Source of the DNA: Melioribacteraceae bacterium
GTDB taxonomy: Bacteria; Bacteroidota; Ignavibacteria; Ignavibacteriales; Melioribacteraceae
NCBI GenBank assembly: GCA_016927595.1
Contig: JAFGMI010000018.1
Span: forward strand, 124,001-188,000
DNA: 64,000 bases
Direction of reading: 5' to 3'
This document shows positions 5,282-29,747 of this stretch, piece by piece. Numbering within the stretch: position 1 is the first letter of the stretch; each line of letters starts with the position of its first letter. Made by a program: the position numbers and the translations under genes. The notes below the pieces were generated by a model, which made no database searches, was not told the origin of the DNA, and worked only from the letters and a program-made list of their open reading frames with translations.

Positions 5282-6781
5282 TCAATTAAAGGATTTTATA
5301 AACTCCTCTATTAATGTTTCATGGATTAAGGAATCCTGTCCGCTTTCATGAGCAGGTTTTATATATTTAAATGCTTCGTCCGAACTGTACGAAAGAAATG
5401 AATGACACAACGTGCAATCATTATCAATTGATTTTCCGTTGGCGTCAATCATATTGTTGTTATGACATCTGAAACAGCCGGAATTTCTCTTGTGCCCGAT
5501 GAAGTTCGGATAAGAACCCCAAACAATTTTCATCCCAGGATGAATATTTCTATTATACGTTTCCTGGAGTACATTTATAGCTTGATCAATATATTCTTCC
5601 CGGGACATATAAATATTTCGGAAGTTATTTAAATAGAATCTTTCTATCCCGGTTCTGATAGCACGTTCAGCAATACCGTTTGTTGTATAAGTTGCCGACA
5701 GAAAATTTAAAGCCTCTCTTTTTATAAACGGAAGTGATCTATCAATCATACCCTTTCTTATCCGCTCATCGACTGCATCTTCAGGTAATTCATAGATATG
5801 TGTTGCTCTGTTATGGCAATCGACACAGTCCATAATTCTGAAATCATCTTCTGTTAATGCCATTTCGTCAATACCGGCTATGTACTTATTAGTGTACCGC
5901 TTATACGTTCCGTCCTGCTGCAATGATTCTACAAAAATCATCTGTTCCCTTTTATCATCAGAGGATATGTATCTCACCAGATTTTTTGAGGAGATGTGCC
6001 AGTGAATACCTGCTTTTTCCCGATCATACCTGGTATCAATTTTTAAATTAAGTGTGGTGTAGTAGGGAGTAGATAAACTATCCTGAGCATATTTCACTTT
6101 TGTTACAAGTTTGGAACCGTAAAATTTTGACGGCCAATGACACTTCTCACAGGTTTCTCTCGCCGGTCTTAATTGATGAACCGGCGTTGGGATGGGTCGT
6201 TCGTACAAATCGAATGTTGCCGAAACAACCTGCCATGCTCCGTTAAGCTTGGAGCTTACCAGAGCATCTATACCCTCACCTACATGACAATCCACACATA
6301 CAACTCTTGCGTGAGGTGAGGTCTGATAAGTAGTCCATTCCGGGTTCATAACCGAATGACATGCTGTTCCGCAGAACTCGGGTTTATCCATAAAAGTAAG
6401 CGTACGCATGCTGGCCAGAGTTAAAAATAAAATGTTTATAATTGTAAAAGCTGCAATAGTATTAAATAGCTTTGAGCCGACGCGGGAAGCTTCCAGGTCA
6501 TCATCAGTGAACTGCTGGTTTAATATTTCCTTAGTAGTTTTACCCGTTTGTTTTTTATATTTCTGCCAGGCAATCGGTATTAAAATTAAGCCTGCTACAA
6601 ATAGAGTTGGCAGCAGCATATAAGTTATCAACCCGATATATGCGTTAGTGAGAACCCCGCTAAGCCTAAGCAGTTCCAAAAATATAAAAGTAAGAAAGGA
6701 AGAAGTCGTTAAAATAACTCCAACCTTTCCGATTTTATTAACCGAAACGCCCCGAAGAAAATTTAAATATTTTTCTTTCAT
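5282..6781 (-). CDS. Membrane hexahaem cytochrome c, NapC/NirT-like N-terminus
   Basis: 499 residues. Three hydrophobic segments are seen near 22-40, 48-70 and 106-125. The haem sites then begin with CGTACH (residues 137-142), a CX3CH variant instead of CXXCH, in a NapC/NrfH-like context (CHSVM...SPHARV). Five standard sites follow: CVDCH (two), CEKCH, CFRCH and CTLCH, the last two near the C-terminus, giving six in all. The family relation to quinol-oxidising NapC/NrfH proteins is clear for the first 60 residues after the membrane. The rest is a lineage-specific extension. It starts 10 bp after the octahaem cytochrome stop, so the two are almost certainly co-translated. Likely role: membrane quinol dehydrogenase or anchor passing electrons to the octahaem partner. 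Confidence 0.85.
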   Translation of the reverse strand: MKEKYLNFLRGVSVNKIGKVGVILTTSSFLTFIFLELLRLSGVLTNAYIGLITYMLLPTLFVAGLILIPIAWQKYKKQTGKTTKEILNQQFTDDDLEASRVGSKLFNTIAAFTIINILFLTLASMRTLTFMDKPEFCGTACHSVMNPEWTTYQTSPHARVVCVDCHVGEGIDALVSSKLNGAWQVVSATFDLYERPIPTPVHQLRPARETCEKCHWPSKFYGSKLVTKVKYAQDSLSTPYYTTLNLKIDTRYDREKAGIHWHISSKNLVRYISSDDKREQMIFVESLQQDGTYKRYTNKYIAGIDEMALTEDDFRIMDCVDCHNRATHIYELPEDAVDERIRKGMIDRSLPFIKREALNFLSATYTTNGIAERAIRTGIERFYLNNFRNIYMSREEYIDQAINVLQETYNRNIHPGMKIVWGSYPNFIGHKRNSGCFRCHNNNMIDANGKSIDNDCTLCHSFLSYSSDEAFKYIKPAHESGQDSLIHETLIEEFIKSFN

Positions 6782-6790
6782 TTAAGCGCC

Positions 6791-8113
6791 TCAGTTCTTA
6801 GGAAAATATTCTTTATAAAGTTTTTGCAGCTCGTTTGATTTTATTGCCTCTTTTAAGTTTTCGTTTGATTCATTCACCCAGCTGTGAATCGGATCTTCGA
6901 GGAGTTTGTCGATGTATGCATTTACCTCTTTGTCATTATATTCTCTTGCCGCGGGCAAAAACTTCAGATAAAAGTGATGTGCAACTTCATAAATTCCATG
7001 CCACCAGGTGTAATCGGGACCCATCATTGCTGCGCCGTGTCTTGCTCTTCTCCCTTCATGATGCCACAATTCCCAGTAAATCCAGTCTATATCATTTGAA
7101 TAGTCGGCTTCTCTTTCGCGTAACCCTTTTTCACGAATCATATTAATGATATCCGTTGCAGGCTTGGCAAATTTTTCATCATAGAGATTTACAAGTCCGT
7201 CGAATTGATAAAAATGTCCGTTGACAAAAACATCACCATGACACGTACGGCAAACATCTTTCATATTGTTTCTTCTGGAAATGTGATTTTCTTTATACTT
7301 TGAGACAGGCGGTCTTAGAGTCCAATGCAATCTTCTGCCGACATCATGAGAAAGAGCTTGTTTATCTGTTGCTGAGATATGACAAGTTGCGCAAGTAGGA
7401 GCCGTATAATAGTCTCGTCCCACAACCCAGTTTTGAGATTCCAAATTCATCTCGTCTTTATGTGTGTAATAGGTGTTTCCATGTTTGCTTGCTTCGTAAA
7501 CTTCTTTCTGAGGGTGATCTGGACCGAGATGGCATTTGGAACATGATTCAGGCTGACGCGACTGTGCCACACTAAAGGAATGTCTTGTATGACAAGCATT
7601 GCAAGATCCTTTTGAACCATCAGGGTTAATTCTTCCGATTCCGCTATTTGGCCAGCTTTCCCTGGAAAGTTTATTCGGTGAATTCTTATCAATTTTAACC
7701 CGTGCACCATGACAATTTTCACACCCGGTTATTGCCACTTGATGCCCGCCGGCGACATTCGCCAGATAAGCGTCCTCCGACTCTAAAATTTCGGCAGCAG
7801 TTGCATGATAAGATTCACTTACTTGTATAGCTTCTTTTTCATGGCATGTTCCACAATCCTTTGGGGTAACAAGTGTTGCAATGTACGCTCCTTCGTGTAA
7901 AAATGCATCAGCTTCAGTTTGTTCTGCCCCATGACAATTGATGCATGTAACATTGTTCCTTGCATGTGCAGATTCATACCATTGATTATAAAGTCCATGA
8001 CTTTTTTCTTTATGACATACCATACACTTGCCTGCTACATCTGCTGAATATGTTTGCGCCATAAGTAAATTTGCAGAGAATAAGAATATCATAAATAATT
8101 TAAATAGTTTCAT
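6791..8113 (-). CDS. Octahaem HAO-family cytochrome c
   Basis: 440 residues with a cleavable signal peptide (about 1-20, ending LLMAQ). Eight CXXCH sites lie near residues 30, 57, 87, 131, 171, 191, 241 and 288. The C-terminal helical part contains HHEGRRARHGAAMMGPDY and TWWHG, motifs of the hydroxylamine-oxidoreductase-like octahaem family, including the reductive eHao-type proteins. Established family roles are hydroxylamine oxidation, or nitrite/hydroxylamine reduction. Which applies depends on a tyrosine cross-link to the active-site haem, which needs an alignment to decide. The context (nrfH-nrfA upstream, a membrane quinol-dehydrogenase-like cytochrome immediately downstream) favours a reductive, ammonifying role. 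It is soluble and periplasmic, unlike the anchored paralogue at 1-1152. Confidence 0.88.
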   Translation of the reverse strand: MKLFKLFMIFLFSANLLMAQTYSADVAGKCMVCHKEKSHGLYNQWYESAHARNNVTCINCHGAEQTEADAFLHEGAYIATLVTPKDCGTCHEKEAIQVSESYHATAAEILESEDAYLANVAGGHQVAITGCENCHGARVKIDKNSPNKLSRESWPNSGIGRINPDGSKGSCNACHTRHSFSVAQSRQPESCSKCHLGPDHPQKEVYEASKHGNTYYTHKDEMNLESQNWVVGRDYYTAPTCATCHISATDKQALSHDVGRRLHWTLRPPVSKYKENHISRRNNMKDVCRTCHGDVFVNGHFYQFDGLVNLYDEKFAKPATDIINMIREKGLREREADYSNDIDWIYWELWHHEGRRARHGAAMMGPDYTWWHGIYEVAHHFYLKFLPAAREYNDKEVNAYIDKLLEDPIHSWVNESNENLKEAIKSNELQKLYKEYFPKN

Positions 8114-22066: not shown

Positions 22067-22981
22067 ATGAAATACTACATCGGGTTAGACGGCGGAGGTA
22101 CTAAAACCAAGTGTGTCCTTTCTGATGCAGATTTTAATATTATAGCTGAATCTGCGGGAGGACCATCTACCTTCCTTTTGATTGGCGCTGACACAGTTGC
22201 TTCAACGATATTAAAGTTAATACTAAATGTAACTGAAAGTGCCGGAATAAATTTAACGGATATAGAAGCTATTGTTCTCGGTACAACAGGTGCGGGAAGG
22301 CGCCCGGATGCTGAATTGCTTGAAGAGGCATTTGCCGGATATATCAGCAAAAATAATTTTAGTCCGTTAAAATTCCATGTCGATAGTGATGCACGAATTG
22401 CACTTGAAGGAGCTTTTACGGGCAGACCCGGAAGTATTCTCATTGCAGGAACCGGCTCCATTATGTTCGGTAAAGATAAAAAAGGAATGATACACAGGGT
22501 CGGCGGTTTCGGAAGATTTATAGGCGATGAAGGAAGCGGATACATGCTGGGACGCAGAGGATTAATAGCCGTAGCAAAAAGTTTTGATGGGCGCGGTGAA
22601 TACACTGTTCTTTCTGAATTTTTGAAATCCGAATTTGGTATAGATGACCCGGCAAAGTTAATCACCGAGGTTTATAAAAATAAATTTGATATTGCTTCCG
22701 TTGCTCCTCTGGTAATCGAGTCGGCAAAAAAAAATGACACAATCTGCCGCACAATAATCGAATCGGAAATATCAGAACTTTTGCAGCATATCTCAGCTAT
22801 GAAAAGTCTGTTGAAAATGGATACTATGAATCTTTGCCTTATCGGCAGTACTCTTACTACAGAAAATTATTATTCGGAATTATTTAAGCAAAAAGTAACA
22901 GCAACATTTGATAGTATTAATATTATTGATGCTGAACTGCCCCCGCATCTCGGGGCTGTTGTAATGGCAAAAGCTTTATAA
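22067..22981 (+). CDS. BadF/BadG-type N-acetylglucosamine kinase-like ATPase
   Basis: 304 residues of the ASKHA fold. GLDGGGTKTKCVLSD (phosphate 1) lies at residues 5-19, ILIAGTGSIMFG (phosphate 2 / sugar contact) near 122-134, and a GGFGRFIGDEGSGY loop near 142-155. This set matches N-acetylglucosamine kinases of the BadF family (NagK, MurK). It would phosphorylate GlcNAc or MurNAc from wall turnover. It starts a plus-strand run with an AmpG-like permease 22 bp downstream and the NagZ-type fusion after that, which supports a wall-sugar substrate. The 292 bp before it are AT-rich and show no gene. Confidence 0.85.
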   Translation: MKYYIGLDGGGTKTKCVLSDADFNIIAESAGGPSTFLLIGADTVASTILKLILNVTESAGINLTDIEAIVLGTTGAGRRPDAELLEEAFAGYISKNNFSPLKFHVDSDARIALEGAFTGRPGSILIAGTGSIMFGKDKKGMIHRVGGFGRFIGDEGSGYMLGRRGLIAVAKSFDGRGEYTVLSEFLKSEFGIDDPAKLITEVYKNKFDIASVAPLVIESAKKNDTICRTIIESEISELLQHISAMKSLLKMDTMNLCLIGSTLTTENYYSELFKQKVTATFDSINIIDAELPPHLGAVVMAKAL

Positions 22982-23003: not shown

Positions 23004-24854
23004 ATGCAAAAGAAAAGAGCGGAAAGACGCAATCCATGGGCATGGGTGCCTTCTTTGTATTATGCCGAGGGTATTCCATATGTTATTGTGATGACAGTTG
23101 CAGTTGTGATGTACAAAAAACTTGGCATATCCAATACGGATATCGCTTTATACACAAGCTGGCTTTACCTGCCGTGGGTAATAAAACCTCTATGGAGTCC
23201 GATTGTAGATATTTTAAGAACAAAAAGATTCTGGATTGTTCTCATGCAGCTTATAGTAGGTGCGGGGCTTGCCGGCGTTGCATTAACAATACCGCTGCCG
23301 AATTATTTTCAATATACATTAGCGTTTCTGTGGCTTCTTGCATTCAGTTCTGCCACGCATGATATTGCAGCAGACGGCTTTTATATGCTTGGATTGTCGA
23401 AGCACGACCAGGCTTTCTTCGTTGGCATCAGAAGTACATTCTACAGACTTGCTATGATTACCGGTCAAGGATTGCTGGTTATACTGGCAGGTTATTTTGA
23501 AAGTACCACCGGGCTTCCACCTGTTGACATTTCGGTTTACTCGAAACCGTCTGATGAGAAAATTCAGTTTTTAAATCCTGACTCAATTGTAATTAACGGT
23601 GTTGAAGGTGAACTAAAGGTACTTGCAGAACCTGCTGAACTGCATATAAGTACCGCGCCTTTACTGAAATCCGAAGCAGATTCACTTCTAAAATTATATA
23701 GAGAGTGGAATGCCTCTCACGGCTTCTATACAATCGAAGAATCTGCCGGTAAAAGTACCACAGAAAAAGAAGGATTATCTGATTTTGAAATGTTTATTAA
23801 AGACACTTTCGGGCAGGAAGAAAAACCGGTTCCTTCAGGGAATTACACAGGTAACATCGGTGTAATATATTTTCATCTTTCGAATAGTCCGGAAGAAGAG
23901 GTGGTTGTTACTTTCGGACAGGAAAAAGGCGATAACAGTATTTCGCTGATTGAAGGAACAAGATTTACTTTTAACCAAATTAACTGGAATAAACCCGCCT
24001 TTGCGGTTATTAAACTAGATCCGAAACTGGAAACAGAATCTTCAGCCGTTTTTGCCGCCCGTGCAGGAAATATACCATTATCATGGATTATTACTTTTTC
24101 CATTCTGACAGCTCTGTTCCTTGTGTTTTTCATATATCATAAGTTTATTTTACCATACCCCAAGACCGATAAACCTGCAGTACGGGAAGAAGGCACAGGT
24201 ATTTTCAGCGAGTTCATCAGAACATTCGTGTTGTTTTTCAAGAAGAAAAAAATTGGTATAATAATTACTTTTCTGCTTTTGTACCGACTTGGTGAATCGC
24301 AGCTGGTTAAACTTGCGGGTCCTTTTCTGCTTGATACCAGGGAACTTGGCGGACTGGGATTAACAACCGGAGAATTCGGGCTTGTATACGGTACAATCGG
24401 AATATTAAGCCTTACACTCGGTGGAATACTGGGTGGTTTACTTGCTTCAAAGCATGGTCTTAAATACTGGCTTTGGTGGATGTTGATTGCAATAAATCTT
24501 CCCAACACGGTATATGTATATTTGTCAACCGTTCAACCTGAATCTTTTTTCATCGTTAACTTGTGCGTGGCAATCGAACAATTCGGATACGGTTTCGGGT
24601 TTACGGCATATATGTTATACATGATTTATGTTTCTGAGGGCGACCATAAAACAGCTCACTTTGCAATTACTACAGGTTTTATGGCTTTGGGTATGATGAT
24701 ACCCGGAATGATGAGCGGCTGGTTGCAGGAGTTAATCGGCTACCAGAATTTCTTTGTCTGGGTGGTTATAGCAACTATACCTGCATTTATAATAGCCAGG
24801 TTCATTGATCTGGATCCGGAATTCGGTAAGAAATCTGAAAATGAAAGCCAGTAA
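23004..24854 (+). CDS. AmpG-like MFS permease with large extra domain
   Basis: 616 residues. The N-terminal six helices carry AmpG-type features (YYAEGIPYVIV, LPWVIKPLWSPIVD, ATHDIAADGFY near residue 115). A non-membrane segment of about 190 residues (roughly 170-360) interrupts the transporter between the N- and C-terminal bundles. The second bundle then runs from about 352 to 605. E. coli AmpG is 491 residues and lacks such a domain. The insert is predicted to lie in the periplasm (or less likely the cytoplasm) and looks beta-rich. AmpG imports anhydro-muropeptides. The neighbouring kinase and NagZ-type hydrolase fit that job. Confidence 0.85.
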   Translation: MQKKRAERRNPWAWVPSLYYAEGIPYVIVMTVAVVMYKKLGISNTDIALYTSWLYLPWVIKPLWSPIVDILRTKRFWIVLMQLIVGAGLAGVALTIPLPNYFQYTLAFLWLLAFSSATHDIAADGFYMLGLSKHDQAFFVGIRSTFYRLAMITGQGLLVILAGYFESTTGLPPVDISVYSKPSDEKIQFLNPDSIVINGVEGELKVLAEPAELHISTAPLLKSEADSLLKLYREWNASHGFYTIEESAGKSTTEKEGLSDFEMFIKDTFGQEEKPVPSGNYTGNIGVIYFHLSNSPEEEVVVTFGQEKGDNSISLIEGTRFTFNQINWNKPAFAVIKLDPKLETESSAVFAARAGNIPLSWIITFSILTALFLVFFIYHKFILPYPKTDKPAVREEGTGIFSEFIRTFVLFFKKKKIGIIITFLLLYRLGESQLVKLAGPFLLDTRELGGLGLTTGEFGLVYGTIGILSLTLGGILGGLLASKHGLKYWLWWMLIAINLPNTVYVYLSTVQPESFFIVNLCVAIEQFGYGFGFTAYMLYMIYVSEGDHKTAHFAITTGFMALGMMIPGMMSGWLQELIGYQNFFVWVVIATIPAFIIARFIDLDPEFGKKSENESQ

Positions 24855-27837: not shown

Positions 27838-29355
27838 ATGCTGAAATTATTTTCAAGGTATATATTATTTTTTGCTGTTTCCGTTTACAGTGCATGCTCG
27901 GACAAAGAGCCAATTCGTGACATTAAGGATGTTATTTTAAATGAACCCGGAAGTTACTATTATATTGATACAGCAGCGTATCCGATAGATAACTCTGATT
28001 TGCCGATTGGAATATTTGATTCTGGCACTGGCGGTTTGACGGTTCTCGATGCAATCATTAATTCGGATAATTTTAAGAATTACGATTATAGCTTCAGTGC
28101 AAACGGAGATGGGATCAGAGATTTTCAGCAGGAAAAATTTATATATCTCGGCGACCTGGCAAACATGCCTTACGGTCAGTATTCAACTTACGGTAAAACG
28201 GATCTTTTAAAAGAACATATTATTAAGGACGTACAGTTTTTACTTGGGAACAAATATTATAAAAGCGTGACCGATAAATATTATTTATCCGATAAATCTC
28301 CAGTAAAAGCCATCGTTATTGCATGCAATACTGCGACGGCTTACGGCAAGCAGGAAATTGAAAATTTTTTGCATGAAGCCAAACTAGATCTGAAAGTTAT
28401 CGGAGTAATTGGAGCGGGCACCAGAGGAGCGTTATCGAAAATTAAAAGCAATGAGGACGCAACGGTCGGTGTTTTTGCAACCCTGGGAACTGTTTCTTCT
28501 AACGGTTATTATGATGAGTTATTCAGAACACATTCTAAAATGAGGTACAGCGGTGTATTAAAAGTATATCAGCAAGCCGGTATCGGTCTTGCGGGCGCCA
28601 TAGACGGTGCGGTTGAGTATATAGATACAAAAAGTATCAAGCCCAGAACAAATTATATGGGTCCCTCAGAAAGCAACGGAACAGCACCCATTGATTTAAA
28701 TATAATTCAAAGATATTCATTCAACTGGTCAAACAATAACATGCTTTATGATGGCACAGCACAGAATCCACGCAATGTGCAGATAAATTCGGTTGAAAAT
28801 TATATCTCGTATCATATAGTATCGTTTCTTGAACAACTATTAAAGGCAGATTCTATCCCGCAACTGAAATCTATAATACTCGGTTGTACCCATTACCCTT
28901 TTTACATAAAACAATTTACCGATAAATTGAAACTTATGTACAACTACAAAGAAGGCGACAAATACATCTACCGCAAGGTGATGTCGAAAAATGTATTTCT
29001 TATAGACCCTGCTCATAATACTGCGATAGAACTCTTTGAACATTTGACCCGAAAAAAGTTTTTCAACAACTCAGACCTTTCGTTAAGTGAATTTTATATA
29101 AGCGTTCCGGACAGAAATAACAAAAACTGCATCATTGATTCATCGGGCAATTTTACTGTCGATTATAAATACGGGAGAAATGCCGGTTACATTCAGGAAT
29201 ATGTAAAATATGTACCGTTTTCTAAAATAACATTATCACAAGAGACCATACGGATGCTTTCATCTCAAATACCATTCACATTCGAATTAATCAAATCATT
29301 TAATGCAATAAATCCGAAATTAGATTTTCTATCTGAGCAGGTAAAAATTAATTAG
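27838..29355 (+). CDS. Exported lipoprotein of the glutamate/aspartate racemase family
   Basis: 505 residues. The N-terminus ends in a lipobox, VYSAC, with Cys20 as the lipidated residue. The core is MurI-like: GIFDSGTGGLTVLD (Asp61), ACNTATAYG (Cys163) and LGCTHYPFY (Cys350, His352), so the Asp/Cys/Cys-His catalytic set is complete. Ordinary MurI is 260-290 residues and cytoplasmic. Here the spacing between the two cysteines is about 187 residues instead of about 110, and there are further inserts, giving nearly double length. It lies 103 bp after the NagZ-type fusion and is likely part of wall-peptide processing outside the cytoplasm. D-Glu/L-Glu interconversion is inferred. Other acidic amino acids are possible. 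Confidence 0.85.
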   Translation: MLKLFSRYILFFAVSVYSACSDKEPIRDIKDVILNEPGSYYYIDTAAYPIDNSDLPIGIFDSGTGGLTVLDAIINSDNFKNYDYSFSANGDGIRDFQQEKFIYLGDLANMPYGQYSTYGKTDLLKEHIIKDVQFLLGNKYYKSVTDKYYLSDKSPVKAIVIACNTATAYGKQEIENFLHEAKLDLKVIGVIGAGTRGALSKIKSNEDATVGVFATLGTVSSNGYYDELFRTHSKMRYSGVLKVYQQAGIGLAGAIDGAVEYIDTKSIKPRTNYMGPSESNGTAPIDLNIIQRYSFNWSNNNMLYDGTAQNPRNVQINSVENYISYHIVSFLEQLLKADSIPQLKSIILGCTHYPFYIKQFTDKLKLMYNYKEGDKYIYRKVMSKNVFLIDPAHNTAIELFEHLTRKKFFNNSDLSLSEFYISVPDRNNKNCIIDSSGNFTVDYKYGRNAGYIQEYVKYVPFSKITLSQETIRMLSSQIPFTFELIKSFNAINPKLDFLSEQVKIN

Positions 29356-29363
29356 AGTGTTTT

Positions 29364-29747
29364 ATGAAAAGTATATCACCGAATTTAATGGTTTATAACG
29401 TTAACGATACCATTGAATATTATAAGCAATATTTCAACTTTGAACTCATTAAAACAGTTCCGGAAGATAAAAACTTTCAATGGGCTATGATGAGGAATGG
29501 CAATGTGACCATTATGTTCCAGTCCTGCGACAGTCTTAAAAATGAATTGCCGCATTTTGAGGACTTCGAACCCGGCGGGACTTTTACTTTATTTATAATC
29601 GGTGAAAATATCAAAAAACTGTATAATAATTTAAAAGATGACATTGAAATTGTAAGTGATCTGAAGGAAACATTTTACGATATGATTGAATTTACATTCA
29701 GGGATTTAAATGGATATCTTATTACACTGGCGGAACCGTTGAAATAG
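29364..29747 (+). CDS. Glyoxalase/bleomycin-resistance fold protein
   Basis: 127 residues of vicinal-oxygen-chelate type: SPNLMVYNVNDTIEYYKQYFNFE at the N-terminus is the usual first beta-alpha unit (landmarks: VNDTIEYY, YFNFEL). The C-terminal motif is EFTFRDLNGYLITLAEP, where the Asp-Leu-Asn-Gly-Tyr turn is typical. The function within this large superfamily cannot be told. It is 8 bp after the racemase-like lipoprotein and probably co-transcribed with it. Confidence 0.75.
   Translation: MKSISPNLMVYNVNDTIEYYKQYFNFELIKTVPEDKNFQWAMMRNGNVTIMFQSCDSLKNELPHFEDFEPGGTFTLFIIGENIKKLYNNLKDDIEIVSDLKETFYDMIEFTFRDLNGYLITLAEPLK

Follow-up and report, generated by a model that had tools for sequence, protein, structure and literature searches.

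A predicted exported, lipid-anchored glutamate racemase relative in a Melioribacteraceae genome and its gene neighbourhoods

The racemase-like gene and its surroundings

The window, a stretch of 64,000 nucleotides from a Melioribacteraceae genome, carries on its forward strand a gene for a predicted exported lipoprotein resembling glutamate racemase (MurI), together with genes resembling those of muropeptide recycling. The genes and the features of the encoded protein are as follows:

22067–22981, + strand: BadF-type N-acetylglucosamine kinase-like (NagK-like) gene
23004–24854, + strand: AmpG-like muropeptide transporter gene, with relatives upstream of the racemase in loci L054 and L066
24858–27734, + strand: fusion of GH3 (NagZ-like) and serine beta-lactamase-like parts, with an N-terminal hydrophobic signal-like stretch
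27838–29355, + strand: predicted exported glutamate-racemase-like lipoprotein, 505 aa, ATG start
27838–27897, + strand: signal peptide with lipobox YSA-C, Cys20 being the predicted lipidated residue (hydrophobic stretch and motif)
28018–28023, + strand: Asp61-Ser62 of the MurI DSG motif (Asp61 codon 28018–28020), identical in all 52 exported and all 34 canonical proteins
28066–28122, + strand: insert, residues 77–95 (19 residues), absent from canonical MurI in the joint alignment
28168–28176, + strand: Pro111-Tyr112-Gly113, substrate-contact motif (alignment)
28246–28293, + strand: insert, residues 137–152 (16 residues), immediately ahead of the first catalytic cysteine (joint alignment)
28324–28332, + strand: Cys163-Asn164-Thr165, first catalytic cysteine (Cys163 codon 28324–28326; alignment)
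28603–28605, + strand: Asp256, an invariant Glu in canonical MurI (52/52 Asp versus 34/34 Glu)
28609–28773, + strand: largest insert, residues 258–312 (55 residues), containing sites 304 and 311 (alignment)
28885–28893, + strand: Cys350-Thr351-His352, second catalytic cysteine and its histidine (alignment)
Residues 363–380, + strand: insert of 18 residues (joint alignment)
29364–29747, + strand: small glyoxalase/VOC-family gene, 8 bp downstream of the racemase

The gaps between the NagK-like, AmpG-like, fusion and racemase genes measure 22, 3 and 103 bp, the last of which leaves operon membership of the racemase in the window unproven; a promoter scan returned promoter-like sites at no more than the shuffled level. 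The position of the VOC gene is conserved in two same-genus relatives, a Melioribacteraceae MAG (L034, whose contig is apparently that of the same-genus match L005) and HGW-Ignavibacteriae-2 (L035), which are the nearest named relatives and assign the window to Ignavibacteriota. The AmpG-like transporter has 616 aa, about 200 residues over the 417–419 residue AmpG models, with unmatched sequence at approximately residues 170–345 between its two halves, and the beta-lactamase-like part of the fusion is also PBP4B-like. Elsewhere in the genome, unlinked to the racemase, lie one dicarboxylate/Glu-type symporter gene and two gamma-glutamyltransferase (GGT) genes.

Family assignment, active site and predicted export

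MurI is regarded as a cytoplasmic enzyme of wall synthesis and as a drug target. The best solved-structure matches of the 505-aa protein are glutamate racemases (2gzm at 5e-14, phmmer), and its match to the MurI NCBIfam model is strong (E 3.5e-24). All curated glutamate racemase cut-offs are nevertheless missed (TIGR00067, 82.8 versus 146.65 bits; NF002035, 85.8 versus 328), as is that of PF01177 (26.1 versus 31 bits), the only Pfam family matched. AlphaFold2, run on a 52-row alignment of the window and locus proteins, gave a predicted model with pLDDT 94.2 and pTM 0.90, on which the glutamate racemase 2dwu aligned over 259 of 266 residues (Z 28.6, rmsd 2.4; VIA-align). According to this model the fold is that of MurI. 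Identity as an aspartate, hydantoin or allantoin racemase was rejected on structural Z values of 17.5 (aspartate racemases) and below against 28.6 for MurI, and an alanine racemase fold with its PLP lysine was absent, given the single Pfam family and the MurI fold.

The sequence-only reading had recognised a complete MurI catalytic set (Asp61, Cys163 and Cys350-Thr-His352) in a protein of nearly double length with inserts around the first cysteine, and the alignments bear this out. Across 52 exported and 34 canonical proteins, Asp61, Ser62, Pro111, Gly113, Cys163, Asn164, Thr215, Thr218, Cys350 and His352 are invariant, while Tyr112, Thr165 and Thr351 never vary among the 52 exported proteins and show few substitutions in the 34 canonical ones. 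In MurI both cysteines act as bases that deprotonate D- and L-Glu (PMC8142540). The protein thus shares with MurI/RacE (TIGR00067; PDB 2dwu, 1zuw, 2gzm) the whole fold, both catalytic cysteines, the Asp and His, and the DSG, PYG, CNT and CTH motifs. It differs in its signal peptide, its lipobox and its length (505 aa versus about 265–300 aa), and in four main inserts, flanking Cys163 on both sides, which together with N- and C-terminal extensions set it apart from the 34 canonical MurIs. A single fixed difference stands out, residue 256 being Asp in all exported and Glu in all canonical proteins. It further belongs to a separate clade, scores below the model cut-offs and is additional to the canonical MurI of its genome. 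We regard the predicted exported racemase as a variant of the known MurI enzyme.

A lipobox had also been proposed, and it is present: Tyr-Ser-Ala-Cys20 follows a hydrophobic stretch, with Cys20 invariant in 8/8 of the closest orthologues and a lipobox cysteine in 44/52 of the wider aligned set. We fetched relatives as the best 80 of 455 candidate stretches, with heuristic ORF calls and signal peptides called by simple hydrophobicity and motif rules, and on this basis an export signal is predicted in each of the 77 whose N-terminus is intact. A cysteine stands behind the hydrophobic stretch in 69 of these 77 and not in the other 8; since one of the 69 (L111) resembles a plain signal peptide more, roughly 68 have a lipobox and roughly 9 a plain signal peptide. 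That signal peptides persist where the lipobox has gone suggests selection for export and not for lipidation alone. Residues 304 and 311 are both cysteine in 24/52 rows and never cysteine singly; the pair belongs to a Flavobacteriia-type subgroup, and the two positions lie on neighbouring strands of a hairpin in the AlphaFold2 model, as would suit a disulfide formed in an oxidising compartment. The signal peptides and the co-varying cysteine pair make the sequence evidence strong for the export of this MurI-like racemase that the earlier reading had proposed. An oxidising compartment could inactivate the catalytic thiols, which is a point against the proposed exported enzyme and raises the chemical question of how a two-thiol active site stays reduced outside the cytoplasm.

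Surface lipoproteins of Bacteroidetes are marked by acidic export signals (PMC5080379). After the lipid cysteine we found net positive charge in the racemase, deacylase and M14 carboxypeptidase proteins of the loci and acidic residues in the SusD proteins of the same loci (mean net charge +0.58 for racemases versus −1.72 for SusD), and the surface lipoprotein export signal (LES), sought as K-(D/E)2 or Q-A-(D/E)2, occurred in just 1 of 69 racemases. Under the LES rule, which was established for Bacteroidetes and may not hold for the host, as a test of the signal in Ignavibacteriota was not found, this suggests that the racemase, deacylase and M14 proteins face the periplasm and that SusD is surface-exposed. 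Surface exposure of the racemase is therefore not favoured.

Clade, distribution and gene neighbourhoods

In a tree of 86 proteins the exported form is one branch (support 100/100), present in all bootstrap trees. Its stem is long (4.41 changes per column), so that substrate specificity may have shifted, a possibility to which Asp256 and the inserts also point. The clade spans Bacteroidota, Ignavibacteriota, Calditrichota, KSB1, Fidelibacterota and Planctomycetota (at least 80 relatives among 455 candidate stretches). A sample of 395 genomes from the phylum yielded 7 with the exported racemase, the window genome counted; in the Flagellimonas class sample of 295 genomes it occurred in the centre genome (G423) alone, which indicates a patchy trait. 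A PLSDB search with a flavobacterial relative found no place covering 80%, and hence no sign of plasmid carriage.

The sequence-only reading had called for a search for a second, cytoplasmic murI, and a canonical copy was found in the window genome (G000:C47). Canonical MurI is a separate gene there, in 7 carrier relatives and in 12/12 Bacteroidota genomes; because it is present in every carrier genome checked, the exported racemase was rejected as a housekeeping replacement. The window genome also encodes a third Asp/Glu-racemase-like protein of 308 aa on a very long tree branch (L002 1435–2358, G000:C31). One Salegentibacter genome (CP051246.1) holds two exported racemase copies in different neighbourhoods (L068 and L074), near-identical in sequence just ahead of the DSG motif.

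Neighbouring genes are the best clue to the function of the exported racemase, and a linkage is established. In the Ignavibacteriota loci, the window included, muropeptide recycling genes are linked to it. An AmpG-like gene abuts the racemase gene in L054 and lies 208 bp upstream in L066. Among the 80 loci we counted a D-aminoacylase-like deacylase gene in 31 (directly upstream of the racemase in 28), an M14 carboxypeptidase in 22, GGT in 9 and a Glu symporter in 12, numbers that arise partly by construction, the queries having been taken from those loci, and that come from related loci which are not independent. The surroundings of canonical murI (approximately 10 kb in 19 genomes) contained 0 of the 14 neighbour families, with the murI query positive in 19/19. 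Most neighbouring deacylase, M14 and GGT proteins have signal peptides, and the deacylase of Flavobacteriia-type loci mostly has a lipobox, its closest solved relatives including D-aminoacylase and N-acyl-D-glutamate deacylase. The racemase–deacylase order is reversed, with the deacylase downstream, in L068 and L076, and deacylases stand on both sides in L094, so that the linkage does not amount to a single fixed operon.

Neighbourhoods vary by lineage, and several loci lack a Glu-related neighbour. Flavobacteriia-type neighbours include SusC/SusD, M14 with faint MpaA similarity, GGT, a GltP-like symporter and DgcA/AE-epimerase-like enzymes, and other loci carry C26 peptidase (gamma-glutamyl-hydrolase-like), amidase, penicillin-acylase-like and glutaminase A genes. 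At L036, from a KSB1 genome, a PgsB-like poly-gamma-glutamate synthase fragment (6565–7311) at the contig end adjoins the exported racemase.

Proposed function and alternatives

We favour, with reasonable but far from full confidence, a reading in which the protein is an exported, cofactor-independent, lipid-anchored glutamate racemase, likely facing the periplasm, that takes released D-Glu to L-Glu for uptake. Its activity and substrate, the direction, the origin of the D-Glu and the exact membrane face are what we infer. D-Glu would be set free outside the cytoplasm, most likely from peptidoglycan stem peptides and related gamma-glutamyl or N-acyl-D-Glu compounds. Proton transfer by two cysteines (Cys163 and Cys350, aided by Asp61 and His352) would equilibrate it with L-Glu, and uptake and use of L-Glu would draw the reaction from D to L, a direction of the reversible racemisation suggested by the neighbouring hydrolases and uptake genes. 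The earlier idea that D-Glu is recovered from wall fragments gains support from the AmpG-, NagZ- and NagK-like genes of the window and from the D-aminoacylase, GGT, M14 and glutamate symporter genes of relatives; the window genome has the symporter and GGT parts of the proposed route, though unlinked. Poly-gamma-glutamate or N-acyl-D-Glu may be another source. Some genomes, mostly of Bacteroidota and their kin, carry a second racemase, predicted to be exported and usually membrane-anchored, beside genes for the breakdown of D-Glu-containing material, and it probably salvages D-Glu as usable L-Glu. More tentatively, and perhaps a little short of an even chance, a periplasmic D-Glu salvage system around this MurI-fold racemase could have spread through Bacteroidota and neighbouring phyla with front ends that differ by lineage: muropeptide recycling for Ignavibacteriota, and for Flavobacteriia SusC/SusD plus D-aminoacylase, M14 and GGT.

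The long stem branch, the large inserts and the fixed Glu-to-Asp change at residue 256 would also suit an enzyme that keeps the MurI fold and chemistry and acts on a Glu derivative, for instance N-acyl-Glu, a gamma-glutamyl dipeptide or Glu at a peptide end, through an active-site entrance remodelled by the inserts. The deacylase, GGT and amidase neighbours act on N-acyl or gamma-Glu compounds, and the fungal enzyme OpaE, which belongs to the same superfamily, epimerises a substrate derived from a peptide (PMC12661438). We consider such a substrate unlikely, since the MurI residues that hold free Glu are unchanged and a dedicated adjacent deacylase would yield the free amino acid. Poly-gamma-glutamate contains both D- and L-Glu, and its specialised use, in place of that of peptidoglycan, is suggested as the main role by the GGT, M14 and C26 gamma-glutamyl-hydrolase-like genes that several lineages carry, Flavobacteriia having SusC/SusD as well. 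The Ignavibacteriota linkage is, however, to muropeptide recycling genes, and the neighbours tested included no known poly-gamma-glutamate hydrolase family, which makes this role distinctly unlikely. A search for a poly-gamma-glutamate SusC locus returned nothing relevant.

The chemistry is reversible, and an L-to-D reaction could supply D-Glu outside the cell, whether for signalling, for wall editing or for D-amino-acid release, which periplasmic PLP racemases can also do. A periplasmic racemase of Pseudomonas putida is accompanied by D-Lys release into the medium (PMC6034422), and the L036 relative adjoins a gene fragment for poly-gamma-glutamate synthesis. The neighbours, on the other hand, are hydrolases and uptake systems, and the P. 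putida enzyme itself serves catabolism (PMC6034422). In addition, the window genome holds no PgsB above the cut-off, for which reason poly-gamma-glutamate synthesis by the host was rejected; we judge the L-to-D direction very unlikely. Hardly any credence attaches to a catalytically dead or cytoplasmic paralogue with a merely lipoprotein-like N-terminus, given catalytic residues invariant in 52 relatives, export signals in 77/77 (lipobox-free signal peptides among them) and the co-varying cysteines.

The favoured D-to-L salvage can be compared with known systems. Periplasmic PLP-dependent racemases have a different fold from MurI and use the PLP cofactor, and the DgcN-DgcA pathway is cytoplasmic, proceeding via an N-acylated intermediate and an enolase-fold racemase. 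The former resemble our candidate in racemising amino acids outside the cytoplasm in a catabolic role, although Alr of P. putida acts mainly on Lys and Arg (PMC6034422). The latter (N-acetyl-D-Glu racemase, NF042940) resembles it in net conversion of D-Glu to L-Glu for catabolism; marine bacteria catabolise D-Glu through DgcN (PMC12363236), and DgcA/AE-epimerase-like enzymes lie near some relatives of the exported racemase. Flavobacteriales RacX and E. coli YgeA are likewise cofactor-independent Asp/Glu-type racemases, but have broad substrates, with Ala79 at the first catalytic Cys position in RacX, and the text describing them mentions no signal peptide (PMC12838360).

Phrase searches of one open-access library turned up no paper describing a glutamate racemase as secreted, periplasmic or exported, which is weak evidence of novelty; if our reading is true, this would be, as far as that library goes, the first MurI-type racemase working outside the cytoplasm. 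D-Glu is a component of cell-wall debris, and the clade would then provide a route from debris D-Glu to L-Glu ahead of uptake and would explain possible D-Glu use by some Bacteroidota and Ignavibacteriota without the N-acylation route. It also gives an annotation to genes scoring under the current glutamate racemase cut-offs.

One further neighbour recurs in ten Flavobacteriia-type loci (L090 11524–12825 and nine others), usually directly 3' of the racemase: an exported protein, often with FN3, whose Pfam matches comprise FN3 and no other family. Cys, His and Asp residues are conserved in it, and it may be an unrecognised hydrolase.
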